From Argopecten irradians (Eukaryota > Mollusca > Bivalvia > Pectinida > Pectinidae), in the NCBI RefSeq assembly GCF_041381155.1, contig NC_091137.1, positions 15,185,765 through 15,249,764 on the forward strand: DNA of 64,000 nt. Direction: 5' to 3'. Below are positions 1 through 58,500 of the stretch, in pieces. Numbering within the stretch: the stretch's first letter is position 1; each line of letters starts with the position of its first letter. Made by a program: the position numbers and the translations under genes. The notes beneath the pieces were generated by a model that did not search any database, was not told the DNA's origin, and worked only from the letters and a program-made list of their open reading frames with translations.

Positions 1-1306
1 GTAAGTCATTGTCTTATACATAGGTAAGTCATTGTCTTATACATAGGTTAAGCATTGTCTTATACATAGGTAAGTCATTGTCTTATACATAGGTAAAGCA
101 TTGTCTTATACATAAGTAAGTCATTGTCTTATACATAGGTAAAGCATTGTCTTATACATAAGTAAGTCATTGTCTTATACATAGGTAAATCATTGTCTTA
201 TACATAGGTAAAGCATTGTCTTATACATAGGTAAAGCATTGTTATTCATTGTCTTATACATAGGTAAAGCATTGTCTTATACATAGGTAAAGCATTGTTA
301 TTCATTGTCTTATACATAGGTAAAGCATCGTCTTATACATAGGTAAAGCATTGTCTTATACATAGGTAAATCATTGTCTTATGCATAGGTAAATCATTGT
401 CTTATACATAGGTAAGTCATTGTCTTATACATAGGTAAAGCATTGTCTCATACATAGGTAAGTCATTGTCTTATACATAGGTAAGTCATTGTCTTATATT
501 ATACATAGGTAAAGCATTGTCTTATACATAGGTAAAGCATTGTTATTCATTGTCTTATACATAGGTAAGTCATTGTCTTATATTATACATAGGTAAAGCA
601 TTGTCTTATACATAGGTAAAGCATTGTCTTATACATAGGTAAAGCATTGTCTTATACATAGGTAAAGCATTGTCTTATACATAGGTAAAGCATTGTCTTA
701 TACATAGGTAAAGCATTGTCTTATACATAGGTAAATCATTGTCTTATACATAAGTAAGTCATTGTCTTATACATAGGTAAATCATTGTCTTATACATAGG
801 TAAGTCATTGTCTTATACATAGGTAAAGCATTGTCTTATACATAGGTAAGTCATTGTCTTATACATAGGTAAAGCATTGTCTTATACATAGGTAAGTCAA
901 TGTCTTATACATAGGTAAGTCATTGTCTTATATTATACATAGGTAAAGCATTGTCTTATACATAGGTAAAGCATTGTTATTCATTGTCTTATACATAGGT
1001 AAGTCATTGTCTTATATTATACATAGGTAAAGCATTGTCTTATACATAGGTAAAGCATTGTTATTCATTGTCTTATACATAGGTAAAGCATTGTCTTATA
1101 CATAGGTAAAGCATTGTCTTATACATAGGTAAATCATTGTCTTATACATAGGTAAAGCATTGTCTTATACATAGGTAAATCATTGTCTTATACATAGGTA
1201 AAGCATTGTCTTATACATAGGTAAAGCATTGTCTTATACATAGGTAAAGCATTGTCTTATACATAGGTAAAGCATTGTCTTATACATAGTTAAAGCATTG
1301 TCTTAT
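1..1306. repeat. 23-bp minisatellite carrying donor-like and acceptor-like ends
   Basis: About 55 head-to-tail copies of a roughly 23-bp unit, GTAAGTCATT followed by GTCTTATACATAG, with GTAAAGCATT as a second common variant and occasional longer units containing TATTATACATAG or TTATTCATT. It starts at the window edge, so its true 5' limit is not visible. It lies in the RAPGEF1 intron before the exon at 1366 and stops about 60 bases before that exon. Each junction reads ATAG|GTAAGT or ATAG|GTAAAG, which resembles an acceptor abutting a donor. Confidence 0.95.
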
Positions 1307-1365
1307 ACATGAGTATATTAAATGATTTGACTATGTTATCCTTTTAACAATGTTTTCTATCATAG

Positions 1366-2237
1366 ATTGGTCCAACAGCGATCACAAGAGAGCCTGCCCC
1401 CTGGTGGTGAAGGCGAATTCTCTCCTCCTCCATTACCAAATAAAGAAAACAGACGATCTCTTACCAACACCTTGGAAATCCTGTCTGGCATGCCAAATCC
1501 TTTGGGCCATGTGAGCCCAAACCAATCTCCACATAGTAGTGTGATTTATACAAACACTCCCTCAGAACTGTCGTCCAGTCTGGGACATATAACTCTCAGC
1601 AACCAATCAGATCAGAGTATATCTCCTCTTAGTCGGTCGCCAGGGAGTAGTATTGGGTCTGGCCTTAATCGGTCATCAGAGGACCTACTGGACTCTACAA
1701 GCCAAAATAGCAGTCGTACAAATAGCTTTTCACGAACGTCTTCTGAAGCTAGGATAGGTAGTTCTTTTAGTTCAAGTACAATGAGCAAAAGTTCGTCACA
1801 GTCAGATGGAACAGTAGACCAGATAAACCAATTAACAAAGGAAATTAATCGGCTGACGTCGGATATTGCTATAATGACCAAAAAGAATGGAAACCAGGGC
1901 GAACATTGTGATGGGCAGGAACCACCATCACTGCCCAAGAAACTGAATCGCCTGCCCTCCCAGTATGATAATATGAATGAGAGTGGCATCCAGCTCACAA
2001 CTGGCTCTGCAGGCAGCAGTCGAGTTGTTTCATATGAAGCGCGGATGTCGTCCTCCTCAACAAGTAGTTCACAGTCGTTTGCAGGCTTCCAAATGCAGAA
2101 GTCAAACACTATATCTTTTACACAGCGTACAAATTCCCAGGAAACATATTCCAGCTCGGAAACATTCTCTAGTGCGAGTCATTCTAGTCTGGAGAGTCTT
2201 CCAAAACCACCACCCCTACCACCAAAGAAACGTCACA
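1366..2237 (+). CDS. RAPGEF1: RAPGEF1 exon: Ser-rich region with CRK-binding motifs
   Basis: Acceptor TTTTCTATCATAG ends at 1365; donor GTAAGT begins at 2238; enters in phase 2 (one base before the TTG codon at 1367) and leaves in phase 1. It encodes about 290 residues that are very rich in Ser and Thr, with EPPSLPKKLNRLPSQYDN near the middle and PKPPPLPPKKRH at the very end. The second motif is a good CRK SH3 ligand and corresponds to the C3G segment KPPPLPEKK before an AYMQ stretch. There is no ATG near the start, as expected for an internal exon. The last bases, from CTACCACCAAAG to the donor, are the seed of the array that follows. Confidence 0.9.
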
Positions 2238-5200
2238 GTAAGTATTACCACTACCACCAAAGAAACACCACAGTAAGTATTGCCGCTACCATCAAAGAAA
2301 CACCACAGTAAGTATTGCCGCTACCATCAAAGAAACGCCACAGTGAGTATTGCCGCTACCACCAAAAAAACGTCACAGTAAGTATTACCACTACCACCAA
2401 AGAAACGTCACAGTAAGTATTACCACTACCACCAAAGAAACGCCATAGTAAGTATTGCTGCTACCACCAAAGAAACAGCCACAGTAAGTATTACCACTAC
2501 CACCAAAGAAACGCCATAGTAAGTATTGTGCTAACACCAAAGAAACGCCACAGTAAGTATTACCACTACCACCAAAGAAACGCCACAGTAAGTATTGTTG
2601 CTACCACCAAAGAAACGCCACAGTAAGTATTGTTGCTAACACCAAAGAAACGCCACAGTAAGTATTACCACTACCATCAAAGAAACGCCACAGTAAGTAA
2701 GTATTGCCGCAGTAAGTATTACCACTACCACCAAAGAAACGCCACAGTAAGTATTGCCGCTACCACCAAAGAAACGCCACAGTAAGTATTGTTGCTACCA
2801 CCAAAGAAACGCCACAGTAAGTATTACCACTACCACCAAAGAAACGTCACAGTAAGTATTACCGCTACCACCAAAGAAACTCCATAGTAAGTTTTGTTGC
2901 TAACACCAAAGAAACGCCACAGTAAGTATTACCACTACCACCAAAGAAACGTCACAGTAAGTATTGCTGCTACCATCAAAGAAACGCCACAGTGAGTATT
3001 GCCGCTACCACCAAAAAAACGTCACAGTAAGTATTACCACTACCACCAAAGAAACGTCACAGTAAGTATTACCACTACCACCAAAGAAACGCCATAGTAA
3101 GTATTGCTGCTACCACCAAAGAAACGCTACAGTAAGTATTACCACTACCACCAAAGAAACGCCACGGTAAGTATTGTTGCTAACACCAAAGAAACGCCAC
3201 AGTAAGTATTGTTGCTAACACCAAAGAAACGCCACAGTAAGTATTACCACTACCACCAAAGAAACGCCACAGTAAGTATTGCCGCTACCACCAAAGAAAT
3301 GCCATAGTAAGTATTGCCGCTACCACCAAAGAAAAGCCACAGTAAGTATTACCACTACCACCAAAGAAACGCCACAGTAAGTATTACCACTACCACCAAA
3401 GAAACGTCACAGTAAGTATTGCCGCTACCACCAAAGAAACTCCATAGTAAGTTTTGTTGCTAACACCAAAGAAACGCCACAGTAAGTATTACCACTACTA
3501 CCAAAGAAACGTCACAGTAAGTATTGCTGCTACCACCAAAGAATGCCACAGTAAGTATTACCACTACCACCAAAGAAACGCCACAGTAAGTATTGCTGCT
3601 ACCACCAAAGAAACGTCACAGTAAGTATTACCACTACCACCAAAGAAACTCCATAGTAAGTTTTGTTGCTAACACCAAAGAAACGCAACAGCAAGAATTA
3701 TTGCTACCACCAAAGAGGTTTTCGGATCAATTTATTCCATTGTGTTTAAGATATGGATTTTAAATCATAATAATATAATTTGAAACATCATATTTGCCAA
3801 TAACAATTACCATGGAAACATAATGGCAGAACATTGGGTTTCCTAGGTTTCAAATAAAGGGGCGGCACAAGGTTTTAGTTATTTCGGCTTAATTACAGTA
3901 TCAGCCTAATGTATGAGGTCACCTCAGCTCAAGTCTGATTTATAAACTCTGTATTACAGTACAAGCCTACATGCAGACCTTTGTGTATTACAGTACAAGC
4001 CTACATGTATAACTCAGTATTACAGTACAAGCCTACATGAAGACCTTTGTGTATTACAGTACAAGCCTACATGCAGACCTTTGTGTATTACAGTACAAGC
4101 CTACATGTATAACTCTGTATTACAGTACAAGCCTACATGTATAACTCTGTATTTCAGTACAAGCCTACATGCAGACCTTTGTGTATTACAGTACAAGCCT
4201 ACATGTATAACTCTGTATTACAGTACAAGCCTACATGAAGACCTTTGTGTATTACAGTACAAGCCTACATGTATAACTCTGTATTACAGTACAAGCCTAC
4301 ATGTAGACCTTTGTGTATTACAGTACAAGCCAACATGCAGACCTTTGTGTATTACAGTACAAGCCTACATGTATAACTCTGTATTACAGTACAAGCCAAC
4401 ATGCAGACCTTTGTGTATTACAGTACAAGCCTACATGTATAACTTTGTATTACAGTACAAGCCTACATGTATAACTCTGTATTACAGTACAAGCCTACAT
4501 GTATTACTCTGTATTACAGTACAAGCCTACATGCAGACCTTTGTGTATTACTGTACAAGCCTACATGCAGACCTTTGTGTATTACAGTACAAGCCTACAT
4601 GTATAACTCTGTATTACAGTACAAGCCTACATGAAGACCTTTGTGTATTACAGTACAAGCCTACATGTATAACTCTGTATTACAGTACAAGCCTACATGA
4701 AGACCTTTGTGTATTACAGTACAAGCCTACATGCAGACCTTTGTGTATTACAGTACAAGCCTACATGTATAACTCTGTATTACAGTACAAGCCTACATGT
4801 ATAACTCTGTATTTCAGTACAAGCCTACATGCAGACCTTTGTGTATTACAGTACAAGCCTACATGTATAACTTTGTGTATTACAGTACAAGCCTACATGA
4901 AGACCTTTGTGTATTACAGTACAAGCCTACATGTATACTCTGTATGCACACCTTTGTGTATTACATTGTACAAGCCTACATGTATAACTCTGTATTACAG
5001 TACAAGCCTACATGTATAACTCTGTATTACAGTACAAGCCTACATGCAGACCTTTGTGTATTACAGTACAAGCCTACATGCAGACCTTTGTGTATTACAG
5101 TACAAGCCTACATGTATAACTCTGTATTACAGTACAAGCCTACATGCAGACCTTTGTGTATTACAGTACAAGCCTACATGTATAACTCTGTATTACAGTA

Positions 5201-8200
5201 CAAGCCTACTCTGTATTACAGCAGACCTACATTTTAACTGTGTATTACAGTACAAGCCTACATGCAGACCTTTGTGTATTACAGTACAAGCCTACATGTA
5301 TAACTCTGTATTACAGTACAAGCCTACATGCAGACCTTTGTGTATTACAGTACAAGCCTACATGTATAACTCTGTATTACAGTACAAGCCTACATGTATA
5401 ACTCTGTATTACAGTACAAGCCTACATGCAGACCTGTTATTACAGTACAAGCCTACATGTATCAACTCTGTATTACAGTACAAGCCTACATGTATAACCT
5501 TTGTGTATTACAGTACAAGCCTACATGTATAACTCTGTATTACAGTACAAGCCTACATGTATAACTCAGTATTACAGTACAAGCCTACATGAAGACCTTT
5601 GTGTATTACAGTACAAGCCTACATGTATAACTCTGTATTACAGTACAAGCCTACATGTATAACTCTGTATTACAGTACAAGCCTACATGTATAACTCTGT
5701 ATTACAGTACAAGCCTACATGCAGAACTTTGTGTATTACAGTACAAGCCTACATGTATAACTCAGTATTACAGTACAAGCCTACATGAAGACCTTTGAGT
5801 ATTACAGTACAAGCCTACATGTATAACTCTGTATTACAGTACAAGCCTACATGTATAACTTTGTATTACAGTACAAGCCTACATGTATAACTCTGTATTA
5901 CAGTACAAGCCTACATGTATAACTCAGTATTACAGTACAAGCCTACATGTATAACTCTGTATTACAGTACAAGCCTACATGTATAACTCTGTATTACAGT
6001 ACAAGCCTACATGTATAACTCTGTATTACAGTACAAGCCTACATGTATAACTTTGTATTACAGAACAAGCCTACTTGTATAACTCTGTATTACAGTACAA
6101 GCCTACATGTATAACTCTGTATTACAGTACAAGCCTACATGTATAACGCTGTATTACAGTACAAGCCTACTGTATAACTCAGTATTACAGTACAAGCCTA
6201 CATGCAGACCTTTGTGTATTACATTACAAGCCTACATGTATAACTCTGTATTACAGTACAAGCCTACATGTATAACTTTGTATTACAGTACAAGCCTACA
6301 TGTATAACTCTGTATTACAGTACAAGCCTACATATATAACTCTGTATTACAGTACAAGCCTACATGTTTAACTCTGTATTACAGTACAAGCCTACATGCA
6401 GAACTTTGTGTATTACAGTACAAGCCTACATGCAGACCTTTGTGTATTACAGTACAAGCCTATATGTATAACTCTGTATTACAGTACAAGCCTACATGTA
6501 TACATGTATAACTCAGTATTACAGTACAAGCCTACATGAAGACCTTTGTGTATTACAGTACAAGCCTACATGTATAACTCTGTATTACAGTACAAGCCTA
6601 CATGCAGACCTTTGTGTATTACAGTACAAGCCTACATGCAGACCTTTGTGTATTACATTACAAGCCTACATGTATAACTCTGTATTACAGTACAAGCCTA
6701 CATGTATAACTTTGTATTACAGTACAAGCCTACATGTATAACTCTGTATTACAGTACAAGCCTACATGTATAACTCTGTATTACAGTACAAGCCTACATG
6801 TTTAACTCTGTATTACAGTACAAGCCTACATGCAGAACTTTGTGTATTACTGTACAAGCCTACATGTATAACTCTGTATTACAGTACAAGCCTACATGTT
6901 TAACTCTGTATTACAGTACAAGCCTACATGCAGAACTTTGTGTATTACAGTACAAGCCTACATGCAGACCTTTGTGTATTACAGTACAAGCCTATATGTA
7001 TAACTCTGTATTACAGTACAAGCCTACATGTATAACTCGGTATTACAGAACAAGCCTACTTGTATAACTCTGTATTACAGTACAAGCCTACATGTATAAC
7101 TCTGAATTACAGTTCAAGCCTACATGTATAACTCTGTATTACAGTACAAGCCTACATGTATAACTCAGTATTACAGTACAAGCCTACATGAAGACCTTTG
7201 TGTATTACAGTACAAGCCTACATGTATAACTCTGTATTACAGTACAAGCCTACATGCAGACCTTTGTGTATTACAGTACAAGCCTACATGCAGACCTTTG
7301 TGTATTACATTACAAGCCTACATGTATAACTCTGTATTACAGTACAAGCCTACATGTATAACTTTGTATTATAGTACAAGCCTACATGTATAACTCTGTA
7401 TTACAGTACAAGCCTACATGTATAACTCTGTATTACAGTACAAGCCTACATGTATAACTCTGTATTACAGTACAAGCCTACATGCAGACCTTTGGAAACT
7501 ACACCCAACCAAGTGCAATAACTGAGTGTGTGTATTCCCGACACTCAATCAACTTTTACGAGTCACAGTGGCAGAATCACCAGATGGAGCTACAGCCACA
7601 GATTTATCCACGCTCAAATACGATCAGTGTGATCTCGGACCTCAGCTCTGACTCTTCCTTTAGTGGAAGTGCTCCAAACAGTCCAATGATTCCTCCCCTT
7701 CCCACCAAACTCAGGGTAAGTCTTCCTCCACCAGGCTCATAGCAAATCATCACTATTAGAAAATCGTCTGTCATCCTCTTATATTATTATTTCTGAAGGT
7801 AAAATATTTTCGCAATTTCAGGGGATATTGCTATGATTGTCGAAATTTGATATACAAAATATTGAGAAATGGTTGAATTCACTTAAGATATTTGCGAAAA
7901 TTTAAAAACGAGAAATTTTAACCTGCGAAAAAATGGCTATACAGAATAATGGATCTATCACTTTTGATGATTTTATTTTTAAAAAGACAACCAAAAAGTC
8001 ATATTATTTTCATTGTTTCTTTTACAGGACAATGTTAATCGTGATAGTCAGTTGTCCACAACTTCCAGCCAGTCTGATTTCTCTGTGCCAGAGTACGCTG
8101 CTGATATGCCGCGGAGAAAGCTGCAAGTTTAATCGAGGGACCAACCCAGGGAGCAGCTTCAGATGTGTATGTTTCCATCTAGTTGTTATATCTCTGCCAT

Positions 8201-11200: not shown

Positions 11201-14200
11201 CTACTAGGACGAGTTGGAGGGTCTGTTGTTTAAAACAATGTACTGTAGGACAAGATCAATTGCAAGCATTTTCAAATATAGCGAGTATATATAAGTAACT
11301 TTATTCAGCCAAAATCGAATTTCATTTGCAGACATAAAGTTGCAAACAATATGGTTATGTTTTCAAAGTTTTGGTTTAGAAATCCGTTAATTTTGTTTCT
11401 TAACATTTCCCGTCTAAGGGTCGGACACTGATTTGGCTTCATGTAATCAAGAAGGTGAGTGGTTAGAAAGTGTCATGTGACATATCTACTTGGCCAATCA
11501 CATCTGTTGTACCAATGTGTGACGTCAATGTTTCCCCACTCCTAACAATTTAATCAAAATAAATACCATTATGTGGTCTTATGAAAATTGAAAAGCGGAA
11601 CCTGTAAAAAAATACAGAATTTAAAAGAATAAATTCCATGGATTTAGTCAGGATTTGAGTGGGGAATCATTGTAATTGTGTATATTTCCTTAGAGCAATC
11701 ATCCAACCTCTGTGCATGTATGTACCATTATCGTGTGTGTCTAGCGCGATCATGCGAGCACATGTGTTGACTGTATGTGTGTCTATATATATATGTTTAT
11801 ATCCCTCCTCATGTACCACACATCATATTACACACATGCACACACTTAATGACACATGTTTATAATCGCATGATCTTTATTAATTACTGAATTATTTCTT
11901 ACAGAGATTACGGAAATGTTTTGACATGAATTCCATGTGTTTTTCTGCTGTCTATATTGTATTCTATTGATAATCTATAAATAGCCTATGACCTATACAT
12001 GAATGACTTGCATAAATTCCACGAGAATGAAGCATTGTGTTTTTATAATAAGAGCTTGTGTGTTGTATCAGTTTCGGAATACTTTAAGAGTATGAAAGTT
12101 CTGTCCATCATTAGAAAAATTTTCTTTTTTGTATATTTCATAGCTGTGAGATTCTGGTACAAAACTGATAATGATATAGTAAGTTATTTGTGATGGCATT
12201 AGAAAACAATTAAAAAAAAAAAAGAAAAATGAATGCATTCTCTGGATTTAATAAGTATTTGATATAAGAACTCAATCTGTCATTGAAAAAAGGCATCAGT
12301 AATTCATGTCCCCTTTCTCATTTAGAAATGTCTATTGCATGGACCTGGTGATGGTTTAGAGTGTAGACTATGGTAGAATGTGTATACATGGCTCTGGGTA
12401 TATACTCAATGATGAACTTCTGTATCTGCATGTAATGGATGTTATTCTGGATACTCGTCCATCTTTGTACTTTTATAAATTTCTTCTTCATTATCTTTGT
12501 CTCTAAACCTTTCTTCATTTTCTTATCATTTGTAAAAAGAATTCTTATTATAGATCATTTCAATTTAATTCAGATAATTAACTTCTTTTATCTTTCTTTA
12601 ATCACCTGCTATGATAATAAGGGAGATTAAGTTAACTATTGTATATACAATGAACATGCATTTGAAGAAATTATGTAACAATTGGTGAAAGGAAAATAGA
12701 CTGTATGGCATATAATGGTGTTTGGTTTTCTGAAATATTACACATCTTCCAATTAAAACATCGGCATGTCTGATATGACCAGAGAGATATACTGGTGTTC
12801 AGAGAGTTAATGATTAATATGAGTTATGTGCCCTTTTTTCAGAATTCATGTACCAGGAGGCCTTCCTGACGACATACAGAACATTCATATTGCCTCGTGA
12901 TCTCATAGACAAAGTCTTGTATAGATTCAACAAATTTCAGCGTGCAGGGGACAACAAAAAAAAGCGTCTGGCCAGAAATGGGTTTTCCCTTCTTGTACGG
13001 ATCATTGATGAGCTGAGGTTGGTGATCCTTTCTCTATTAAAACTATTCCTGGCATATTGTGGTTCTTAACCAAAAATAGAAAAAAAAAATTCTGTTCAAT
13101 ATCAGTTTCAACATTTTATATTGGGTACTGTTTTAAATTAATTGAATTAAACTAATTTCATTATTTAAAAAAAAAATTCTTTCGTTTGCCAGTCATGCTG
13201 AGCTTGAAGATCAAATCATACAAAAAATGATGGAACTTGTGTTTGAGCTGCTGTGTCAGGGGAATCTCATGTTGGCACGCATTCTCAGGAAAAAGATCAT
13301 TGAGAAGTGTGAGGCGAAGAAAGCTCACAGTGAAGTCGCACAAACAATGAACATCACCTCCTCTATATCTCTGGCCTCCAGGTAGGTACAAGGGGAGATC
13401 ACTCAATCTCCTGCATGTATGTCCTACAGACATTTTTGGTATCTCTTTAGGCTACTGTTAATGTTGTACCCTACATTTTGAAACTTAATGTACCGGTATA
13501 CAGAGGAAAAAACTTGATATACTGTAGATAAATATTACCATGGTACATACATATTGATCATACTGCAATCTAATTAACATACCAACTTATTTGTTGGTCA
13601 GCCTAATGTTACATGTTATATTTGTTGGTCAGCCTAATGATACATGTTATATTTGTTGGTTAGCCTAATTATGCATGTTATATTTGTTGGTCAGCCTAAT
13701 GATACATACATGTTATATTTGTTGGTCAGCCTAATGATACATGTTATATTTGTTGGTCAGCCTAATTATACATGTTATATTTGTTGATTAGCCTAATGAT
13801 ACATGTTATATTTGTTGATTAGCCTAATGATACATGTTATATTTGTTGGTCAGCCTAATGATACATGTTATATTTGTTGATTAGCCTAATTATACATGTT
13901 ATATTTGTTGGTCAGCCTAATGATACATGTTATATTTGTTGATTAGCCTAATGATACATGTTATATTTGTTGGTCAGCCTAATGATACATGTTATATTTG
14001 TTGGTCAGCCTAATGATACATGTTATATTTGTTGATTAGCCTAATGATACATGTTATATTTGTTGGTCAGCCTAATGATAACATGTTATATTTGTTGGTC
14101 AGCCTAATGATACATGTTATATTTGTTGGTCAGCCTAATGATACATGTTATATTTGTTGGTCAGCCTAATGATACATGTTATATTTGTTGATTAGCCTAA

Positions 14201-17200
14201 TGATACATGTTATATTTGTTGGTCAGCCTAATTATAACATGTTATATTTGTTGGTCAGCCTAATTATACACCTGTTGTATATTTTGTTATTTGTTGATAA
14301 TGATACATGTTATATTTGTTGATTAGCCTAATGATACATGTTATATTTGTTGGTCAGCCTAATGATACATGTTATATTTGTTGATTAGCCTAATGATACA
14401 TGTTATATTTGTTGGTCAGCCTAATGATACATGTTATATTTGTTGGTCAGCCTAATGATACATGTTATATTTGTTGATTAGCCTAATGATACATGTTATA
14501 TTTGTTGGTCAGCCTAATGATACATGTTATATTTGTTGGTCAGCCTAATGATACATGTTATATTTGTTGATTAGCCTAATGATACATGTTATATTAGCTC
14601 ATTAGCCTAATGATACATGTTATATTTGTTGGTCAGCCTAATGATACATGTTATATTTGTTGGTCAGCCTAATGATACATGTTATATTTGTTGATTAGCT
14701 AATGATAACATGTTATATTTGTTGATTAGCCTAATGATACATGTTATATTTGTTGGTCAGCCTAATGATACATGTTATATTTGTTGGTCAGCCTAATGAT
14801 ACATGTTATATTTGTTGGTCAGCCTAATGATACATGTTATATTTGTTGGTCAGCCTAATGATACATGTTATATTTGTTGATTAGCCTAATGATACATGTT
14901 ATATTTGTTGGTCAGCCTAATGATACATGTTATATTTGTTGATCAGCCTAATGATACATGTTATATTTGTTGGTCAGCCTAATGATACATGTTATATTTG
15001 TTGGTCAGCCTAATGATACATGTTATATTTGTTGATTAGCCTAATGATACATGTTATATTTGTTGGTCAGCCTAATGATACATGTTATATTTGTTGATTA
15101 GCCTAATGATACATGTTATATTTGTTGGTCAGCCTAATGATACATACATGTTATATTTGTTGGTCAGCCTAATGATACATGTTATATTTGTTGATTAGCT
15201 AATGATACATGTTATATTTGTTGATTCCCTAATGATACATGTTATATTTGTTGATTCAGCCTAATGATACATGTTATATTTGTTGATTAGCCTAATGATA
15301 CATGTTATATTTGTTGGTCAGCCTAATGATACATGTTATATTTGTTGGTCAGCCTAATGATACATGTTATATTTGTTGGTCAGCCTAATGATACATGTTA
15401 TATTTGTTGGTCAGCCTAATGATACATGTTATATTTGTTGGTCAGCCTAATGATACATGTTATATTTGTTGGTCAGCCTAATGAAACATGCTTTATTTGT
15501 TGATTAGCCTAATGAAACATGTTATATTTGTTGGTCAGCCTAATGAAACATGTTATATTTGTTGGTCAGCCTAATGACACATGTTATATTTGTTGGTCAG
15601 CCTAATGATACATGTTATATTTGTTGGTCAGCCTAATGATACATGTTATATTTGTTGGTCAGCCTAATGAAACATGCTTTATTTGTTGATTAGCCTAATG
15701 ATACATGTTATATTTGTTGATTAGCCTAATGATACATGTTATATTTGTTGGTCAGCCTAATGATACATGTTATATTTGTTGGTCAGCCTAATGATACCTG
15801 TTATATTTTTAGCTCACCTGGCCCGAAGGGCCGGTGAGCTTATGTCATGGCGCGGCGTCCGTCGTCCGTCGTCCGTCCGTCCGTCCGTCCGTCCGTCGTC
15901 CGTCTGTCCGTCAACATTTCCTTTAAATCGCTACTAGTCATAGAGTTCTACATGGATTGTAACCAAATTTGGCCACAAACATCCTTGGGGGAGGGGGAAC
16001 AGAACTTGTATAAATTTTGGCTCTGACCCCCCGGGGGCAGGAGGGGCGGGGCCCAATAGGGGAAATAGAGGTAAATCCTTTAAATCGCTACTAGTCATAG
16101 AGCTTTGAATAGAATGTAACCAAATTTGGCCACAAACATCCTTGGGGGAAGGGGAACAGAACTTGTATAAATTTTGGCTCTGACCCCCCCGGGGGCAGGA
16201 GGGGCGGGGCCAAATAGGGGAAATAGAGGTAAATCCTTTAAATCGCTACTAGTCGTAGAGTTCTGAATGGAATGTAACCAAATTTGGCCACAAACATCCT
16301 CGGGGGAAGGGGAACAGAACTTGTATAAATTTTGGCTCTGGACCCCGGGGGGCAGGAGGGGCGGGGCCAAATAGGGGAAATAGAGGTAAATCCTTTAAAT
16401 CGCTACTAGTCGTAGAGTTCTGAATGGAATGTAACCAAATTTGGCCACAAACATCCTCGGGGGAAGGGGAACAGAACTTGTATAACTTTTGGCTCTGGTC
16501 CCCGGGGGGCAGGAGGGGCGGGGCCCAAGAGGGGAAATAGAGGTAAATCCTTTAAATCGCTACTAGTCATAGAGTTCTCCATGGAATGTAACCAAATTTG
16601 GCCACAAACATCCTTGGGGGAGGGGGAACAGAACTTGTATAAATTTTGGCTCTGACCCCCGTGGGCAGGAGGGGCGGGGCCCATTAGGGGAAATAGAGGT
16701 AAATCCTTTAAATCGCTACTAGTCATAGAGTTCTGAATGGATTGTAACCAAATTTGGCCACAAACATCCTTGGGGGAGGGGGAACAGAACTTGTATAAAT
16801 TTTGGCTCTGACTCCCCGGGGGCAGGAGGGGCGGGGCCCAAAAGGGGAAATAGAGGTAAATCCTTTAAATTGCTACTAGTCATAGAGTTCTGAATGGAAT
16901 GTAACCAAATTTGGCCACAAACATCCTTGGGGGAGGGGGAACAGAACTTGTATAAATTTTGGATCTGACCCTCCGGGGGCAGGAGGAGGGGGGCCCAATA
17001 GGGGAAATAGAGGCAAATTCTATAAATCGCTACTTGTCCTAGAGTTCTGCATGGATTGTAACCAAATTTGGCCACAACCATCCTTGGGGGAAGGGGAACA
17101 GAACTTGTATAAATTTTGGCTCTGGTCCCCCGGGGGCAGGAGGGGCGGGGCCCAATAGGGGAAATAGAGGTAAATCCTTTAAATCGCTACTAGTCATAGA

Positions 17201-20200
17201 GTTCTGCATGGATTGTAACCAAATTTGGCCACAAACATCCTTGGGGAAAGGGGAACAGAACTTGTATAAATTTTGGCTCTGACCCCCTGGGCGCAGGAGG
17301 GGTGGGGCCCAATAGGGGATTTAGAGGTTAATATTAAAATTCCTTCAGAAAAGAAACAATGAACCTGTATTCAGAACATTACTTGGCATTACAAACCAGG
17401 TGAGCGATACAGGCCCTCTGGGCCTCTTGTTTTGATTAGCCTAATGATACATGTTATATTTGTTGGTCAGCCTAATGATACATGTTATATTTGTTGGTCA
17501 GCCTAATTATACCTGTTATATTTGTTGATTAGCCTAATGATACATGTTATATTTGTTGGTCAGCCTAATGATACATGTTATATTTGTTGTCAGCCTAATG
17601 ATACATGTTATATTTGTTGGTTAGCCTAATGATACATGTTATATTTGTTGGTCAGCCTAATGATACACGTTATATTTGTTGGTCAGCCTAATTATACCTG
17701 TTATATTTGTTGATCAGCCTATACTTAGTGATTGTTTACTTGTTACAGCCCGTCAGATCTCCTACACCTTAAGTCACACGATATTGCGGAGCAGATGACG
17801 TTGATGGATGCGGAGTTGTTCCAGAAAATTGAGGTAGGACTGATTTGATCTTAACTCAAATATAAGTACAAGGAAGTGTGATCTGATAGTGTTGATAGCC
17901 ATATATCATGATGAAGAACAGGGCCCAGTTCTACAAACAATTCTTTACTTAAAATTTCCCATTGGAAAGCATTATAGAATGTCCTAATTTGAGATTTTTT
18001 CCTTAGTTTTTGTTATGCTTTCGTTTGGAGAATTTTAAGTTAACTCTTGTTAAACTAGGCCAGATTCTATTTCATGACATAAATTTTTTTAGGGGAAAAC
18101 ATTCTAATAATTATTGAATTTGAAACAAATGTAAAAGAGGACAGAAAGGTAATAAACTGTGTTTTGTCTAGATCCCAGAGGTTCTTCTTTGGGCCCGGGA
18201 GCAGTCAGAAGAACTAAGTCCAAACCTGACAGAATTTACTGAACATTTCAACAAAGTTTCTTACTGGTAAGTACACATTGTTATGATATTACAGTCACTA
18301 TGGTACTTGAACCCTGTTATTCCTGTTTTTGGCAAAACTTTTAGTCCATCATAGTTGTTTACACTCTACTTTCTTTATCACATTCGCTGGTATCCTACCG
18401 TTGCAAAAGTGTGTTGATGACTTCTGGAGTCAAATAGTAATCATTATGTATAAATATGGATCCATGACCATAACTGACAAGTCGGGATATGAATTTATTG
18501 ATTTTGTCATCAGCTGTGGAGATTTCTAACGCTTACAATGATTTTGTTTTAGGTGTAGAACACAAATTCTTATCCAGGAAGAAGCCAAGGAGCGAGAAAA
18601 ATATTTAATCAAATTCATTAAAATCATGAGGGTAAGCTACCAATGTAAACAACATGCATCTATATATCTATAAATCTTCAAAGTGCTTTATTTAACACAA
18701 AAAATCAACATTAATTTGTTATTAAGAAATAAAGAATTTATAAACTACTTAATTGTCTGTGTCTTTTGGCTTATTAAGTGGTAACTTACCTTTCCCTTAA
18801 TTTGATTAATCTTTTTGACTTTAATAGGATCAGCGTCATTTTACTAACCACATTGGTTTACCCTCGACATTCCGCTTCCTTTCCACATTTGGATATCACA
18901 TGCTCTTTTTGTAGTGGTTATAAAATGAATATTGTTTGTAGGTGTAAGTAAATGAGCTAACATGATTAACGTATGATAAAACCACAATGTTGAACTGTCA
19001 GTTAACACTGATTTACCTTTTCCCTTAACACTTATAGCACCTGCGGAAGCTGAGTAACTTCAACTCCTACCTGGCTATCCTGTCAGCTGTCGATTCGGCT
19101 CCTATACGACGTCTAGAGTGGCAGAGACAAAACTTAGAGGTACAAAACTATAAAGTCTTATAGAACAGGCCCCACTGGGAGATTCAAATCAGGACGATTA
19201 CATTTGAAAGAAAAAAAAATTACGCAATTATAATTCATTTTTAGATTGACATAAAAGTAATTAAAATTTTCAAGCATGAAACAGAACCACATAATTAAAT
19301 GTTTTTGTAGTTTCTCCTTAAGACACATAACTATAACCCCTCAATTTTACTGTTTTAACTTGATATGTCAGTGCTTAAATGGTCTGGATTGTCGTCATAT
19401 GTTTCTTGGTAACTACGTTGTATTATTTTAATTTAGGCACTGAAGGAGTTCTGCCAGCTCATCGACAGTTCAGCATCGTTCCGTGCCTACAGACAAGCCT
19501 TGAGTGAGACAGAGCCTCCCTGTATACCATACATGTAAGTTGGTCATTGATAAGCTGATTGATCAATGTCTTAGGTAGAACAAAAACTTGTTAGTATGGG
19601 GTTGAGGTATCCAGTCATACTGTTGAGGCTGGCTGATGTCTTGTCTTGTCTGGCCCATAGATATATTTCAGAAAACCATTGATATTTTGAAGGCAGGTTT
19701 TGAAACGTTTATAAAGATTTTACATAGGCTTTTGATAAGGCTTTCTTATATTTTGTATGAGGTTTTGTTATCAATTTGTCCTCACCAGGAACCAGGGGAC
19801 AATAGATTGGGGCAGTATGTGTTGTGGTCACTGTGACCTTAATTTTGATGTTTGATTAACCTATAGGAAAAATCTTGTCTTCTTGTCTTGATGCAGTCTT
19901 CGTTACTATGGGGAACCAAAACTTTACATGGATTCATCTAGGCAAGAGAAATACAACTACCTACCAGAAACTGACTTATTTTGTGACGTTAAAAGTATAT
20001 ATAAACAAAGCAGAACTTTATGGACTGTATAACATGTACAATATTTAATTACAACAAGGACGTATATAAGAAGGATAAGTCACACTGGGGTTTGGGGAAG
20101 TCCAAGGCAGGCGCTTTTGTGTTTGTGTACTGACCGTGACGTTGGGCGACGACTGATTTTCCTTTGATATCCGCCGGCGCAGCCTTTGATGTAGCTTGCG

Positions 20201-28735: not shown

Positions 28736-28869
28736 TCTCCCTCACAAGTCTTCCAGATATTTATTGCTTATTATTAATAACACATACTTACTGTATCTCC
28801 CTTCCCTCACAAATCGCTAGTAGGAAACTTGCAAACTAGATTCCCTTGCCTTACAATTCTCCCCCAGTT

Positions 28870-30060: not shown

Positions 30061-30144
30061 AGAAAACTTACCACAATCCTTGTACAATACCTTCCCCAGA
30101 CCTAAAGTACTTGTTGGGCCAGATACATCACTTCCCTTTATTTA
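30045..30144 (+). CDS. Possible last exon of an unidentified plus-strand transcript
   Basis: From the last acceptor-like CCTCACCTCACAG the repeat frame leaves the array and continues with unique sequence: SPPVENLPQSLYNTF, then PRPKVLVGPDTSLPFI and a stop at about 30142-30144. The unique part has protein-like composition and no stop, but I found no upstream exon to join it to, no polyadenylation signal and no homologue. Confidence 0.25.
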
Positions 30145-30358
30145 ACCTTTAGACCTGTTGGTGTGTAAGGATTGGAGTGATGGATGATAGTTTACAAGTG
30201 TTGTAGTATCTTTAGCTGGTTACAATTCCGTTACTACTACCAACAAGGATATCCTCTCCACAATACAGACCCATACATGATTAATTTACTTCCATGTATA
30301 CAAATCAATATCAAAGCAAAACATCAGAAATGATTAATATGTCCTGATTAACCTTTTT

Positions 30359-34600: not shown

Positions 34601-34609
34601 TTAACAAAT

Positions 34610-47023: not shown

Positions 47024-47112
47024 CTATCTGCTTGTTCAAAAATAAATGTTCGAGTTAACCGAATACTCCAGTTTACATGTATTTAAGTCGTACGTTTATC
47101 TGTTTCAGAGCC

Positions 47113-47629
47113 ATGTCGAAAGTGTATGTGGTACTGGGAGTTGACTCGGCTGTAGGGGCAGCTGTAGCCTTCTACCTGTCCAAAGTAGCAACAGTGAAAG
47201 GCGTTCCTCTTGGGAGTCCTAGAGGGAAAGGGGAGGTAGACCCTCCGCCGGGAGTGGCAGTACATCGATGTGCACCACATGATGTTGGTTCTATGGAACA
47301 TATCTTAAGAGGATGTGATGGTTGTTTTGTATTTACGCTATCCGACTTTAGGAACGACCCCAGTAGTTTTATGGTGACCGAGGTAGAATACGGGAGGACA
47401 ATAGCCACTGCCAGTAATAAGGCACGTGTTCCCCACGTGATCTACTGTACAGAGCCTCACACGGGCGATATACAGGGAATCGGTGCTCGTCACATGATCG
47501 CGAAAGCCGAGACGGAACAATGTTTCAGAGTGGCTGACGTCCCCCTCACCCTCATCACCCTCCCCCGGAGGTACGAGGATACTCTCGACTACATGGCACC
47601 GGAAAAGGTCGGCAGAGATTTCGTCTTCG
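47113..47629 (+). CDS. NmrA-like protein, first coding exon
   Basis: An acceptor CTGTTTCAG ends at 47108, so an upstream non-coding exon is likely; the ATG at 47113 (GCCATGTC) is 5 bases inside the exon. Donor GTAAGC starts at 47630, phase 1. The exon ends KVGRDFVF; those codons and the donor seed the array that follows. Without splicing the frame stops at 47644-47646. Confidence 0.88.
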
Positions 47630-50522
47630 GTAAGCCAAAAGCGTAAATGGTCGGCAGGGATTTCGTGTTAGGTACAATAAAAGCGTAAATGGTCGGCAGG
47701 GATTTCGTGTTGGGTACAACCAAAGCGTAAATGGTCGGCAGGGATTTCGTGTTCGGTACGTCAAAAGCGTAAATGGTCGGCAGAGATTTCGTGTTCGGTA
47801 AGTCAAAAGCGTAAATGGTCGACAGGGATTTCGTGTACGGAAAGTCATAAGCATAAATGGTCGGAAGGGATGTGTTCGGTACAACAAAAGCGTAAATGGT
47901 CGGCAGGGATTTCGTGTTCGGTACGTCAAAAGCGTAAATGGTCGGCAGGGATTTCGTGTTCTGTAAGTCAAAAGCGTAAATAGTCGGCAGGGATTTTGTG
48001 TACGGAAAGTCATAAGCGTAAATGGTTGACAGAGATTTCGTGTACGGAAAGTCATCAGCATAAATGGTCGCCTGGGATTTTGTGTACGGAAAGTCATAAG
48101 CATAAATGGTCGACAGGGATTTTGTGTTCGGTAAGTCAAAAGCATAAATGGTCGGCAGGGATTTCGTGTACGGAAAGTCATAAGCGTAAATGTTCGACAG
48201 AGATTTCGTGTACGGAAAGTCATAAGCGTAAATGGTCGGCTGGGATTTCGTGTACGGAAAGTCATAAGCGTAAATGGTCGGAATGGATTGATTTCGTGTT
48301 CGGTAAGTCAAAAGCGTAAATGGTCGGCAGGAATTTCGTGTACGGAAAGTCATAAGCATAAATGGTCGGCAGGGATTTCGTGTTTAGTAAGTCAAAAGCG
48401 TAAATGGTCGACAGGGATTTCGTGTACGGTCGTATACGGATTGTCATAAGCGTAAATGGTCGACAGGGATTTCGTGTACGGAAAGTCATAAGCGTAAATG
48501 GTCGACAGGGATTTCGTGTACGAGAAGTCATAAGCGTAAATGGTCGACAGGGATTTCTAGTTCGTAATGTCATCAGCATAAATTATCGTAAAAGTTTTCG
48601 TGTTCGGAAAGCCATCAGGGCAGGGATTTCGTGTTCAGTAAGTCACCAGCATCGTCAAGGATTTCTTGTTTGACGTAAAATTTCATGTTGTTTCTAAGGT
48701 CTACGTTTCATAAAAGGAGTACCTGTAATTGTTGCGCCGACTGAATTCAACTCATAGAGGCGCTGAAACAAATGACTCTTTCTTGTTTAATGTAATTTTA
48801 CACATTTTGTCTTTATTTCAGAACTCCCGATGGACACCGAAATTCCCCTGAACATGATCAGCGTCCTGGATTTAGGGCCCATTATAGAGAAAATCTTCAA
48901 TGACAGGGCCAAATTCACGGACAAACGTGGGAACCGTGGTCCGATTAGTCTGTGTGGCAGTAAGGTATCCCGCCAGACGTTCGCTCAGTGTTTCTCCTAT
49001 AACATAAACGCTCTCAAGTTCTTCGACAAACCCGTAAGTAAAATGATTATCAAATAGTATGTTAGGGGCTACATAACCAAGGAATTTCAATGAACATGAG
49101 TTTTACCAAACACAGCGTTCTGCTAAACGCACACGTCCCTACTATAAGAGAAGGGAAATGACCACAGGGACCTGGCACGAAAATTTTTAACCAAACAGTA
49201 TACATATATATATTTATTACATAATTTGTTTACACCAATCTATATATGAAGAAATATAATATTTTCAACTATTACACCGACCGTTCAATAAAACCTTGTT
49301 ATATTGCACGGTTCGAAGTTATATTGCACGCTTCCATGGAAACGTTATATTGCACGGTTCGAAATGTTATATTGCACGGCTTTAGGAACACCTCGCTGTT
49401 GTTGTCTAGTTTTGTAGAAAACTTCCGAGGAATTGCGAGTAACAGTGAGTTACGTTATTATGACGTCACAAAGGTTCACGCTTAATTTCGCGCTGGATTT
49501 ATAGATCTCGAATCAAGCACGTCATGTAGACGTTTACTGTACCGAGTAAAGGACGGACACGATGAATGTATTAGATCAAAAGGCTGCAAGCAGGTCTAAT
49601 AATGTGAAAACAGACAATAAGACATCCAAACCGGAGTTACAACGTGACGTACGTAGGCTATACGTCAATCTTCAATAGGATATTAAGGTTTTTTCCGTAC
49701 GATACGGTGTTGTGATTTTGTTAAGTGATTGTCGTATTCGTTTTATAAAAAAAAATATTCAACTGAAAAACTGGTGATTATGTAATAAAACAAATATTCC
49801 ATGGTTACTGTGCCCTAGTTCATAATATTTACCCCTCGGTGATGGTAATCAACAAATGTTATATTGCACTCGACCTTTGGCCTCGTGCAATTTAACATTT
49901 GTTGATTACCATCACCTCGGGTTAAATATTATGAACTAGAGCACAATAAGCCATGAAATATTTGTATAATATATTATAGTATCATAGATACAATGATATG
50001 TATATATGTATACAGTTAGTTTTAAAAAATCGTGCCAGGTCCCTGTGGAAATGACGAAGAATCGTGTCTTGGACACGGGAAACGTAAACGCCCTCATATG
50101 TGATTTTGCATCGCCGTAAATCATGTCTTAGAAACCTCAATTTTAAATGTTTCTTGGAAATTGATAGTGCATATATATATTATGCCTCGACTTAAAACTT
50201 CGATTTTTGTTTACATTGATGTTAATTTCCAATATGGTATAGAATGTTATGGGTTTGATTCCAGGTAACACACGCAGCCTACCGCCAAGCCTCCCACACA
50301 CACCCATGGAAGGAGGACTACGCAAACATGTTTCTATTCTTAATGCGCACGCGCTGGGATCATATGTACAGTGACAAAATAACGCGTGAGCTCAACCCCG
50401 ATACCAGGTACTTTGAGGAATGGGTACAAGCAAACGCCCATGGACTTTATACAGTATTTACTGAGGTTAAACCCGAGGATAGACTTCGCTGGTGGTTTAA
50501 TCAGATTTACAAAATGAAGTAG
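47113..50522 (+). CDS. NmrA-like family protein (NMRAL1-type), three coding exons
   Basis: Complete coding sequence of 328 codons in exons 47113-47629, 48822-49033 and 50265-50522. NmrA-like proteins are atypical short-chain dehydrogenases that bind NADP(H) and act as redox sensors rather than enzymes. The N-terminus VYVVLGVDSAVGAAVAFYL is the Rossmann beta-alpha-beta unit, with the usual GxxGxxG loosened (G..sAvGaaV), so dinucleotide binding may be altered. CDGCFVFTLSDF and HVIYCTEPH correspond to the GAYATFIVTNYW and HYVVYSGLE parts of NMRAL1; PMDTEIPLNMISVLDLGPII and WKEDYANMFLFL match the C-terminal half (PMDGMSVSDLGPVV, DLANMFRFY). Length is close to the family norm of about 300. Intron 1 holds the 42-bp exon-edge array, intron 2 a hAT-like element. 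Confidence 0.87.
47630..48660. repeat. 42-bp minisatellite made of the preceding exon's 3' end and its 5' splice site
   Basis: About 24 copies of GGTCGGCAGGGATTTCG, TGTTCGGTAAGTC and AAAAGCGTAAAT. The first part equals the last 23 or so exon bases (coding VGRDFVF), the GTAAGTC is the donor, and AAAAGCGTAAAT the first intron bases. Variants TGTACGGAAAGTCATAAGCG lose the GT. The 42-bp period is a multiple of three, producing long minus-strand frames of a 14-residue repeat (about RPFTLMTFRTRNPC); these are not genes. Confidence 0.95.
48822..49033 (+). CDS. NmrA-like protein, second coding exon
   Basis: Acceptor TTTTGTCTTTATTTCAG ends at 48821, donor GTAAGT starts at 49034; phase 1 to phase 0. 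Reads LPMDTEIPLNMISVLDLGPI to NINALKFFDKP. Confidence 0.9.
49163..50047. mobile_element. hAT-like MITE with 8-bp target duplication and a central hairpin
   Basis: Inverted ends CACAGGGACCTGGCACGA and TCGTGCCAGGTCCCTGTG, flanked by GAAATGAC on both sides (49155-49162 and 50048-50055). An 8-bp duplication is the mark of hAT transposons. Inside are repeated TTATATTGCACGGTTCGAA segments (49305-49380) and a long palindrome (49785-49965). Lies in intron 2 of the NmrA-like gene. Confidence 0.85.
49785..49965. repeat. Long palindrome
   Basis: Two arms of about 80 bases: TTCATAATATTTACCCCTCG and GTGATGGTAATCAACAAATG on the left return as CATTTGTTGATTACCATCAC and GTTAAATATTATGAACTAG on the right, around a centre of about 30 bases (TTATATTGCACTCGACC onward). 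Confidence 0.85.
50265..50522 (+). CDS. NmrA-like protein, last exon
   Basis: Acceptor GGTTTGATTCCAG ends at 50264; phase 0. Reads VTHAAYRQASHTHPWKEDYA, then NMFLFLMRTRWDH and ends RLRWWFNQIYKMK with a TAG at 50520-50522. Confidence 0.9.
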   Translation, partial: VTHAAYRQASHTHPWKEDYANMFLFLMRTRWDHMYSDKITRELNPDTRYFEEWVQANAHGLYTVFTEVKPEDRLRWWFNQIYKMK

Positions 50523-54309: not shown

Positions 54310-54478
54310 ACATGTACAAGTTCTGTTCCCCTTCCCCCAAGGATGTTTGTGGCCAAATTTGGTTACAATCCATGCAGAACTCTATGACTAGTAGCGATTT
54401 AAAGGAAATGTTGACGGACGGACGACGGACGCCGCGCCATGACATAAGCTCACCGGCCCTTCGGGCCAGGTGAGCTAA
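54310..54478 (-). mobile_element. Truncated copy of the AGCTCACC element
   Basis: Inverted relative to the copy at 15811. Contains AGTTCTGTTCCCCTTCCCC, CCAAATTTGGTTACAATCC, the GACGGACGG run and the hairpin end AGCTCACCGGCCCTTCGGGC CAGGTGAGCT. Only the 5' end and part of one core unit remain, a typical 5'-end fragment. Confidence 0.85.
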
Positions 54479-55428: not shown

Positions 55429-55527
55429 CTATATTACTGACTTCAGCTGATCAAGTTCCATTGATAGTTGTTTGAATTCCTCCATAAAAGCTTCCTCCTC
55501 TTCCAATATAATCAACTGTCTCATCTC
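55429..55527 (-). CDS. SLFNL1: SLFNL1-like, last exon (coiled-coil tail)
   Basis: Acceptor GTTTAATTAACAG; phase 0. Reads EMRQLIILEEEEAFMEEFKQ, then LSMELDQLKSVI, TAG at 55431-55429. Heptad-like Leu/Ile spacing suggests a coiled coil. The acceptor and the first bases of this exon are repeated in the array at 55528-56037. Confidence 0.75.
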   Translation of the reverse strand, partial: EMRQLIILEEEEAFMEEFKQLSMELDQLKSVI

Positions 55528-58500
55528 CTGTTAATTAAACATCATAAGATCATCTTCTGTTAATTAAACATCATAAGATCATCTCCTGTTAATAAAACAT
55601 CATAAGATCATCTTCTGTTAATTAAACATCGTTAGATCATCTCCTGTTAATTAAACATCGTTAGATCATCTCCTGTTAATTAAACATCATAAGATCATCT
55701 CCTGTTAATTAAACATCATAAGATCATCTCCTGTTAATTAAACATCGTTAGATCATCTCCTGTTTATTAAACATTGTAAGATCATCTGTTAATTGAACAT
55801 CGTAAGATCATCTCTTGTTTATTAAACATTGTTTGATCATCTCCTGTTAATTAAACATGAGTAAGATCATCTCCTGTTAATTGAACATGGTAAGATCATC
55901 TCCTATTATTGAACATTGTAAAATCATCTCCTGTTCTTTGAACATTGTAAGATCATTTCCTGTTAATTAACATTGTAAGATCATTTCCTGTTAATTAACA
56001 TTGTTAGATCATCTCCTGTTAATTAAACATTATAAGAGGTATAAACTGTCTTTGTGAAACTAATGGCTATATTATTCTATTGTTGATTCTTCTGTTATAG
56101 CAATTGTCAGTACATTGCCAAATCATTTGCTCTTTTGTTTTCATTTTGTCCCAAAATTTCAAACATGTGTAAGTACAAACCAATAAAAGCTTATAACTTC
56201 TGACAGTACTTAGTATGGTGGGACACCAAAATGGCTGGCAAATGTGCAGTTTTGAGAAGTAGAACATGGAATCATACCAGAGCAGTGAGTTGAGACGTGT
56301 GTGGTCCAAAACGATAGAAACATTCCCCATCTTTTAGTGTATGCATGATTCCATGAGACACAGGTTTAACAGCGACCTCTGCAAGATAGATATGTTTCTC
56401 AGCGAACAATTCATACTAAGATTAATATCGTAAAAAACCCAAAATCCATAAAGGCCCCTAGTCAACCATTTGGATCTGTGATCAGTCCTAAATTAGATAA
56501 AAACAATTGTAAGAGACAAGTGAAATGAGACTTTTCACTAAACAGTTCTATCTGAGAAAGTACAGTATTGGGGAACTTTAACTGACTTCAATCATAACGT
56601 TGACATGTAGGATCAAGATATAACATCGTTGAGAAAGACGTTTTCAACATTTTCTTAAATAGCTGTAAATATCAAGAGCTGGCAAACTGATAGTAAGTAC
56701 CAGGTTTGGATAAAGATGCATAAAATTGAAATTGAAAAAAAAAAGAAGAAAGAAATCTCCCCCTACTCACCAAATTAAAACTGTAAAATGCACTTGCCCA
56801 TTATATACAAGTGCTGACTAAACCCGCAAAAATATACCGATAGTTAAACATTAAAAAATATTTTCCTATTCCCATGGATTTGCTACAATAGTAAGACAGA
56901 TTTGAGTGTATGAAAACATTCGTTCATTCCCAGTATTACATGAAGATAAGTTTACTTACCAGCAACAAAGCGGTCTTTGATGGCTACGAGAGTGTTAGTA
57001 TGTTCATCGTGCTCCACGACAGGTGTATATATAACATCAAACATGGAGTGGAGAACACACGGGGAAATTTTATCTGACATCATCCGGTCTACGCCAATAC
57101 GGAACTCATCGCGATCATCTCGATTCATTTCCACACCTTGAACCGTACTAGAAATCCCGAAGTAGATCTTCCCTCCTTTCCCTGAGCAAACACAAACATG
57201 GATACATGCCATACCATTACAAAGTCCTTTCATACTACAAAATTAATAAATTTTGCCAAAGACACGCCAGTTTAAAATGGTGCAGAAAAGCAAGAGCACA
57301 AATAACATCCACCTATGTACAATCATCACCAAATAACTGTCCATGTGGGACACCTTAACCACTTAGCCACTACCAAGATTTAAATTATGCTTTTATTTCT
57401 TAGTGAATGATAGCCTACCACTGTTAAGGAGCCCACAGAGACATGCTTGGCGATGACAGAAGACGACACTTGAAGATGGATTTGTTTGGTCTTAGCTCAT
57501 GTGTAGTTATCATTTCTCAAACTCCACCTCAGAACCTTAAACATACAAACAAATAATAACACTCAACTAATAACAAATGTCATAATCATCATTGGCCTGA
57601 ATTAATTGATCAACATTTTCAGCCAGTTTTAAAGAAATAATGTGTCCAACATGAGATGAAATACAACTAGGGATAATTATGTATTAGTTTTAAGTTTTAA
57701 AATACTATTTCTTTGTTGCAAAAAAAAAATAAATTTTTTAATTCGTAATTCTAGTTTTGCTTTCAATAAAGAAATACGACTTGTTGTGTAACGATTCCAT
57801 ATATGGAAAAAAACATGTAAAGTAAATGTGTCCCATAAACAATACATCTCTATAATTACATATGACCACATTGATAAGGTAGAGATCTGATTTATAAGCT
57901 TACCCAATATGAAGGAATTGTTGGTTGTTTGTCCATAGTAATGTGTGGCGTCAATGGTTGTGACAGGCCTGGTAATGTCATCTGTAATAATACACAGCTA
58001 ATCAACACATAAATGTTGACGAGTGCTGGTTTACACCATTTAACTGAACATCAAAATTTACTATTTTTATGGTTTTTTCTAGCGAGTGAAGTTTTTTTTA
58101 TAACTTTGATCTGAAATGTAAATCACCATTACAGAGTTCAGATCTGATGTCCAATTAAACCAGCAAAATACAATATTCACATTACCACTGCACAGTTCCT
58201 TTATGTTGCTACTATGCCCCAATGTATAATATTTTCCAGTATTTACATTGGCAGTTAGGCTCTAGCGTACCGATACAAAAATCAAAAGGTTCAAAAGGTC
58301 AAAAAATGACTGGGGTTTACGTCAGTATGATAACTAACTGAAGAATATAATATATTCTGAAAATTGATCAATATGTTAATATATTCTTATTAAAATATTT
58401 GAAATTGATTGAAATGTTGTACTTATCGTTGTATATCCTGTTTCATCAATGGGACTAATTCATCTACTGTTATTGTTTAGTCGGTTGTCAGTGGCAACAT

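Follow-up and report, generated by a model that had tools for sequence, protein, structure and literature searches.

Splice-site-straddling minisatellites in genes of the scallop Argopecten irradians resemble the mirages of amphioxus

Introduction

A 64,000-nucleotide stretch of the Argopecten irradians genome (NCBI RefSeq assembly GCF_041381155.1, NC_091137.1, positions 15,185,765 to 15,249,764 of the forward strand; the whole stretch is hereafter the window) carries tandem arrays that begin at exon borders of several genes, three of them in RAPGEF1/C3G, and each unit of these arrays repeats the edge of the exon together with its splice donor or acceptor. The locus raises the question of how such arrays arise and are tolerated, and whether exon borders are special places for them or are merely hit by chance. 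An original prediction, made from the letters of the window, was aware of no name for the phenomenon. A name exists, however, as minisatellite-like duplications of this kind are called mirages in amphioxus, and the scallop arrays have the structure by which mirages are defined. Here we describe the arrays and conclude that they are probably mirages, minisatellites that began when a stretch across a splice site was duplicated in tandem.

Arrays at three exon borders of RAPGEF1/C3G

Tandem arrays in the window were called with Tandem Repeats Finder (TRF; 63 rows), junctions were inspected directly, and reading frames were tested by script. Three exon borders of RAPGEF1/C3G were found to bear arrays:

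1..1310, plus strand: right-hand portion of a 23-bp donor mirage whose unit is ATACATAG followed across the exon border by GTAAGTCATTGTCTT (TRF, junction)
1366..2237, plus strand: coding exon ending in PPPLPPKKRH (open frame, splice signals; gene name from the downstream exons)
2212..3716, plus strand: 35-bp donor mirage, about 43 copies (TRF, junction)
3945..7484, plus strand: 32/34-bp acceptor mirage, about 109 copies, in the same intron as the 35-bp donor mirage (TRF, junction)
7471..7715, plus strand: next coding exon (frame test)
12843..21157, plus strand: further coding exons, RasGEF_N and RasGEF region (homology)

The intron at 2238-7470 opens with a donor array and closes with an acceptor array of different sequence. 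The upstream exon ends at 2237 with the donor GT at 2238, and the 35-bp unit consists of the last 26 exon bases plus GTAAGTATT; GTRAGT occurs 43 times in this array. At the other end, the acceptor AG lies at 7469-7470, the next exon begins at 7471 after TATTACAG, and the array contains the exon-start bases TACAAGCC 104 times and the acceptor TATTNCAG 100 times. The 23-bp array, which the original prediction overlooked at the left edge of the window, starts 436 bases to the left of it, where the preceding C3G exon ends (L006:1508; the junction of ATACATAG and GTAAGTCATTGTCTT is found there and then repeated), and occupies nearly the whole intron up to position 1310.

The gene was identified by a RasGEF_N match at 12818-13069 and by six stretches within 17759-21142 that align to a human C3G sequence at 49-85% identity; a seventh match (41%) extends partly into an intron. 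No straddling array was found at the curated borders of the exons in 12843-21157. In the C3G exon from 8028, the frame hits a stop just after 8100-8125, and the exon may therefore end at a GC donor (GCAAGT).

Similar arrays in other genes of the window

The remaining arrays named in the original prediction, with their exons, are as follows:

47109..47629, plus strand: coding exon of an NmrA-like protein (open frame, Pfam)
47603..48611, plus strand: 42-bp donor mirage, about 24 copies, with 27 exon-edge bases plus the donor, GT at 47630 (TRF, junction)
48822..49033, plus strand: next NmrA-like exon (frame, homology)
55521..56037, minus strand: 29-bp acceptor mirage, 18 copies, unit TTAATTAACAG followed across the border by GAGATGA (TRF, junction)
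56278..56378, minus strand: preceding exon of the gene with the 29-bp array (junction, frame test)
62934..63062, minus strand: 57-bp duplication, 2.3 copies, with 33 exon bases plus the donor GTACGAAAG (TRF, junction)
63030..63258, minus strand: presumed coding exon, the end of which is duplicated by the 57-bp unit (open frame and splice signals alone)
28842..30068, no strand assigned: 66-bp array, candidate only (TRF)

The NmrA-like gene matches Pfam NmrA with an E value of 6e-6, just short of the curated cut-off. The 29-bp array directly precedes the last exon of its gene, its acceptor ends at 55528, and it has only 7 bases in common with the exon.

TRF and the junctions confirmed arrays built from an exon edge and its own splice site at five of the six places named. 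For the sixth, proposed as a possible case at 28870-30060, acceptor-like units do occur (17 units with CAGTAGAA, and no GTRAG on the plus strand), but no exon was recognised there, no homology search having been made on that array; on the minus strand GTRAG is present 26 times beside a short open frame. The count of two genes on the plus strand and one on the minus strand held for the four main arrays, whereas the two-copy case adds a fourth, minus-strand gene.

Only the exon-proximal sites keep the reading frame

Read in the frame of exon 1366-2237, the C3G intron offers 4,300 combinations of its 43 GTRAGK donors with its 100 TATTNCAG acceptors, and a single one stays open through the next exon, namely the outermost pair (donor 2238 and acceptor 7470). 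Likewise, one of four GGTRA donors, the first, keeps the frame in the NmrA-like gene, as does one of 20 acceptor-like sites (AACAG, AATAG or AACAA), the last, in the minus-strand gene with the 29-bp array. Because only the exon-proximal site keeps the frame, its choice is needed for the normal protein, and we infer that the spliceosome picks this site. Exon definition is an established principle able to explain such a choice. In experiments with duplicated 3' splice sites, the proximal site was not always used, according to the part of the report available to us (PMC5389562). The supposition that splicing, by removing the surplus copies, makes the duplications tolerable agrees with the outcome in all three introns tested, and tolerance through splicing is well supported.

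Cases outside the window

A sample of 108 kb, the window included, was analysed (L numbers denote sampled loci). Five myosin regions (42 kb) were chosen from 77 Myosin_head places for having many exons in little DNA, and 4 of their 78 borders (3 donors and 1 acceptor) were straddled by arrays:

L073: donor array, 63 bp, exon end ..VRHIFKLEQ followed by GTAATG
L070: donor array, 37 bp, exon end ..GTIIK followed by GTAAGT
L069: donor array, 42 bp
L069: acceptor array, 43 bp

No border arrays were found in the myosin loci L071 and L072. One myosin exon on C5 (L072:7422-7724) is identical in 101 of 101 residues to the PDB chains 1DFK, 1DFL, 1B7T, 1KK7 and 1QVI, which we take to be those of the bay scallop, Argopecten irradians.

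The first six distinct forward arrays of GTAAGT triples listed on C1 include three that adjoin apparent coding-exon donors, a figure that has no matched control. One lies in a gene matched to PDB enolases, the second in a gene that we presume to be ALG3-like, and the third in an unnamed gene known by its open frame alone, where about 10 imperfect exon bases are shared. Border-seeded arrays therefore recur in unrelated genes, as had been claimed from the window. Across the 108 kb, four of the five arrays with at least three GTAAGT sit at curated donors, three of these four being in or beside the window.

Two further observations concern the myosin genes. A 118-bp duplication, 99% identical, covers the acceptor side of a myosin exon at L070:4103-4345 on C1; its length is not divisible by three, and only from copy 2 is the frame open to the exon end, so that copy 1 should be spliced out, unless the duplication represents an allele or an assembly error. 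It was left out of the straddled count because its copies extend far into the exon. At L072:2131-2747 and 3821-4632, a muscle myosin gene has tandem pairs of similar exons, which are probably mutually exclusive alternatives.

Array copies compared with the exon copy

In the seven curated donor cases, the unit takes in 8-34 bases of the exon; across the ten curated cases of either kind, the unit length is 23 to 63 bp. We compared ten donor and three acceptor arrays with their exon copies, under a rule set afterwards that a majority difference must be present in at least 70% of copies and be separated from the far edge of the shared part by 5 bases or more. All seven differences that passed were synonymous (CGT/CGC, AGA/AGG, GTC/GTG, ACA/ACC, CTC/CTT, GGA/GGT and GAT/GAC), and came from four arrays (one from the C3G 35-bp array, two from NmrA, one from L070 and three from the ALG3-like gene). 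Dropped for falling below 70% were position 3 of the C3G 35-bp array, two differences in the C3G acceptor array, four in the L069 donor array, and one each in the L069 acceptor array and the two-copy case. NmrA position 3 and enolase position 2 were dropped as edge differences, and both would change a residue if counted; positions 0, 3 and 4 (edge) and one gap of the ALG3-like array were also dropped, as was L077, which gave no alignment.

Other repeats

Several repeats of the window and of C1 are recorded here in their own right. The 66-bp array (22 codons) has one plus-strand frame open for 353 residues (29084-30145), and on the minus strand a donor-like GTGAGG in many units, adjoining a short open frame. 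At 28015-28742, an array on the minus strand contains 17 GTAAGT and 3 AGGTAAGT, with no exon recognised. A 31-bp minisatellite at 13588-15808 and 17438-17721 flanks a 157-bp repeat block (15919-17332), which looks as though inserted into the 31-bp array. A 145-bp tandem repeat family containing AAGGTCAAAGGGGTCAAATAGGCTAAAATC (8405-9787 and 62153-62871), with similar sequence on C1 (L009:1-430), is apparently a dispersed element with internal repeats. Very long arrays on C1, with ends according to the matches listed, are a 41-bp array with AGGTAAGT (C1:2890660-2897056) and a 38-bp array with TTTTACAG (C1:2624393-2628605). Transposon-borne repeats were considered for the curated cases and rejected, since the units contain gene-specific exon bases.

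Are exon borders favoured?

The original prediction held that a mechanism or a selective filter, rather than chance, places arrays at exon borders, and proposed comparing array borders with shuffled positions. Homology, open frames and splice signals served to curate 120 borders, 59 of them donors and 61 acceptors. The outer ends of terminal exons were left out. Uncertain borders were also dropped: in L071, both borders of the exon 4034-4201 (numbered on the reverse strand); in L072, a donor near 2789 and two acceptors, near 2681 and near 4540; in L073, the final donor (8692); and in the window, the GC donor of the C3G exon from 8028 and an acceptor near 57182. Arrays straddled 10 of the 120 borders, against an expectation that depends on the width of the zone considered, being 3.2 with 40 bp (P 0.002; a width picked after the arrays had been seen) and 5.5 with 80 bp (P 0.05). 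With circular shifts the mean was 4.7, and 46 of 3,000 shifts reached at least 10. The two- to three-fold excess over all loci appeared mainly at donors (7/59 versus 1.5-2.6 expected) and hardly at acceptors (3/61 versus 1.7-2.9). The window with its left flank, the window itself having been selected for these arrays, contributed 6 of 42 borders versus 1.3 (40 bp, P 0.002) or 2.4 (80 bp, P 0.04).

A second test counted tandem triples of a donor word and of the reversed word over 846 Mb; these are counts of matches and not of arrays, and long arrays carry more weight. GTAAGT gave 83,105 triples versus 30,554 for the reversed word, with local singles outside arrays at 69 versus 65. For the donor octamer AGGTAAGT, triples were 7,605 versus 855 (8.9-fold) and singles 52,563 versus 45,462 (1.16-fold); for AGGTGAGT, triples were 4,178 versus 1,085 (3.9-fold) and singles 27,765 versus 16,647 (1.67-fold). 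Donor words are over-represented in tandem triples beyond their single-copy abundance, 7.7-fold for AGGTAAGT and 2.3-fold for AGGTGAGT, and the word itself could be the cause. None of the three local arrays of TGAATG triples (8400-9787, 15919-17332 and 62153-62871) lies at a curated border. Distinct arrays on C1, grouped by eye with the listing order assumed, numbered six forward in 1.6 Mb for GTAAGT, and six forward in 4.0 Mb and ten reverse in 3.6 Mb for TGAATG.

A number of observations weigh against our overall reading of the arrays, set out in the next section. The use of splice sites is itself inferred from the reading frame. The myosin borders alone, in loci not picked for arrays, show no significant excess (4/78 versus 1.8 at 40 bp or 2.8 at 80 bp, P 0.1-0.3), and six kinase loci had no array at about nine exon borders judged clear by eye, in a sample thinned because many translations were unlike a kinase and the match position had been misassumed. 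A clear exon was absent at the other three of the six GTAAGT arrays inspected on C1. Of three AGGTAAGT arrays examined, the 23-bp C3G array lies at a donor and the other two (28015-28742 minus and C1:1099220) show no exon, and among the matches listed the array at C1:2890660 accounts for 97 of 100 AGGTAAGT-triple places. Counted as distinct arrays, the GTAAGT excess is smaller, about 1.7-fold over both strands and 2.5-fold on the forward strand. Triples of the acceptor word TTTTACAG exceed the reversed word just 1.5-fold (4,321 versus 2,927, without a single-copy baseline), and all its places among the matches listed come from one 4.2-kb array. Finally, the fall in identity to the exon copy with increasing distance is weak, rho being negative in six of the eight arrays scored with nominal P < 0.05 in four. 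The word test suggests an excess for donors and hardly any for acceptors, but for most of the arrays behind it no link to an exon was established. A donor bias is plausible but not proven, and the dismissal of chance stands only in part.

Origin and persistence of the arrays

The scallop arrays probably started with a tandem duplication across a splice site and grew by unequal exchange or slippage. If the exon-proximal site is taken by exon definition, the other copies would become intronic and all but neutral; an array at the edge of an exon would then survive, whereas one within a coding exon would not. For the donor-word excess, the likeliest cause we can offer is selection that holds the exon copy intact, which would keep re-seeding the array.

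A bolder proposal is that minisatellites are preferentially born at splice donors or find refuge there, the selected exon copy keeping the intronic array alive, in thousands of introns, each with numerous near-equal splice sites but only the outermost one working. Extrapolation from three cases in 1.6 Mb on one strand gives roughly 3,100 GTAAGT arrays at donors, with a very wide error. We regard the proposal as tentative, at somewhat below even chances, having lowered its probability because the excess of distinct arrays is smaller than the match counts imply and because few AGGTAAGT arrays are tied to exons.

Neutral placement has a comparable claim, being a possibility that we would also put a little short of even. 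Under it, the genome is simply rich in minisatellites, some of which land on exon edges and survive by splicing, borders not being special. With 25% of the sampled 108 kb taken up by arrays, borders must often be hit by chance, and random intron positions are straddled at 4.4-4.7%; the myosin and acceptor counts and the modest excess of distinct arrays also agree with it. The donor counts and the excess of donor-word triples over single-copy abundance do not.

The donor word itself, rather than its position at an exon, might favour tandem growth through a mutational bias, for instance by an internal short repeat (AAGGTAAG). The arrays on C1 and of AGGTAAGT that lack a clear exon point this way, as does one 19-bp step within the 35-bp C3G array, which contains GTAAGTAAGT. 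We nevertheless consider this unlikely, as the other half of the C1 arrays are at apparent donors, there are acceptor arrays that lack that word, and donor units include 8-34 exon bases in all seven curated donor cases.

That the arrays serve splicing, e.g., as spare or decoy donors under selection, is improbable. Of the roughly 43 copies in the 35-bp array, 40 retain GTAAGT, but conservation of its donor columns (93-100%) is similar to that of its exon columns (76-100%); many copies of the 42-bp array have a donor decayed to GGAAAG, the T of GT being kept in only 54% of copies and GGTAAG in 4; and the inner sites tested disrupt the frame. An assembly artefact is the least probable of all, for although such arrays are difficult to assemble and are known here from one assembly, the cases are independent, in several genes with different units, and copies differ from one another and from the exon copy, with some arrays having just 2-6 copies.

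Comparison with known systems

In amphioxus, mirages are known from Adh3, the globins BflGb6 and BflGb9, troponin C and PGBD5 (PMC3087553, PMC3902484). The portions of these papers available to us describe minisatellite-like tandem duplications across an intron/exon boundary, whether 5' or 3', with units of about 10 to 160 bp (PMC3087553), retention of AG/GT in many copies with regular splicing (PMC3087553, PMC3902484), and length polymorphism and somatic instability (PMC3087553). As far as these portions go, the scallop arrays likewise span the boundary (at six borders within the window or its left flank, at four in myosins, and in enolase and the ALG3-like gene) and affect both of its kinds (donors at 1-1310, 2212, 47603 and 62934; acceptors at 3945-7484 and 55521). 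Their units of 23-63 bp fall within the amphioxus range, and the frame test is compatible with the regular messenger RNA reported there. They differ in copy number (about 109 in the longest array versus 3 and 6 in amphioxus globin haplotypes), in having arrays at both ends of one intron, and in the genome-wide excess of donor words.

In the Rogers model, introns are gained by tandem duplication of an exon segment containing AGGT, with potato RdRp, vertebrate ATP2A1 and fission yeast as examples in the part of the account consulted (PMC4974935). The likeness is that a tandem duplication brings in splice signals and the extra copies turn into intron, whereas in the scallop the arrays lengthen introns in which the outermost copy is the working site. 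The C3G intron 2238-7470 does not derive from one AGGT segment as that model has it, since the 35-bp unit at its donor differs in sequence from the 32-bp unit at its acceptor. Internal tandem repeats of human segmental duplications are minisatellites, some at exon-intron boundaries, that alter gene structure (PMC2812944); these belong to recent paralogues, half of the variable repeats being in coding sequence, and the consulted part of that paper does not describe a splice site in every unit. An abalone TSSK1-like intron has a minisatellite, not described as a border case in the available part of the report (PMC6905558), and the corresponding part of PMC12063269 contains nothing on border arrays. 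No mollusc report of mirages was found in the open-licence literature searched, although scallop cases may have been published earlier. Within that literature, the novelty lies in the phylum of the host, in the scale and in a possible bias towards donors.

Significance

The scallop arrays extend an amphioxus curiosity to a second phylum and suggest that mirages are common enough there to be studied. How the spliceosome selects a site can be tested naturally on introns that hold dozens of nearly identical donors or acceptors, one of which preserves the frame. Mirage arrays also suggest a route of intron lengthening and of possible shifts of exon borders. If the donor bias were confirmed by annotation, it would connect selection on exons with the turnover of repeats.

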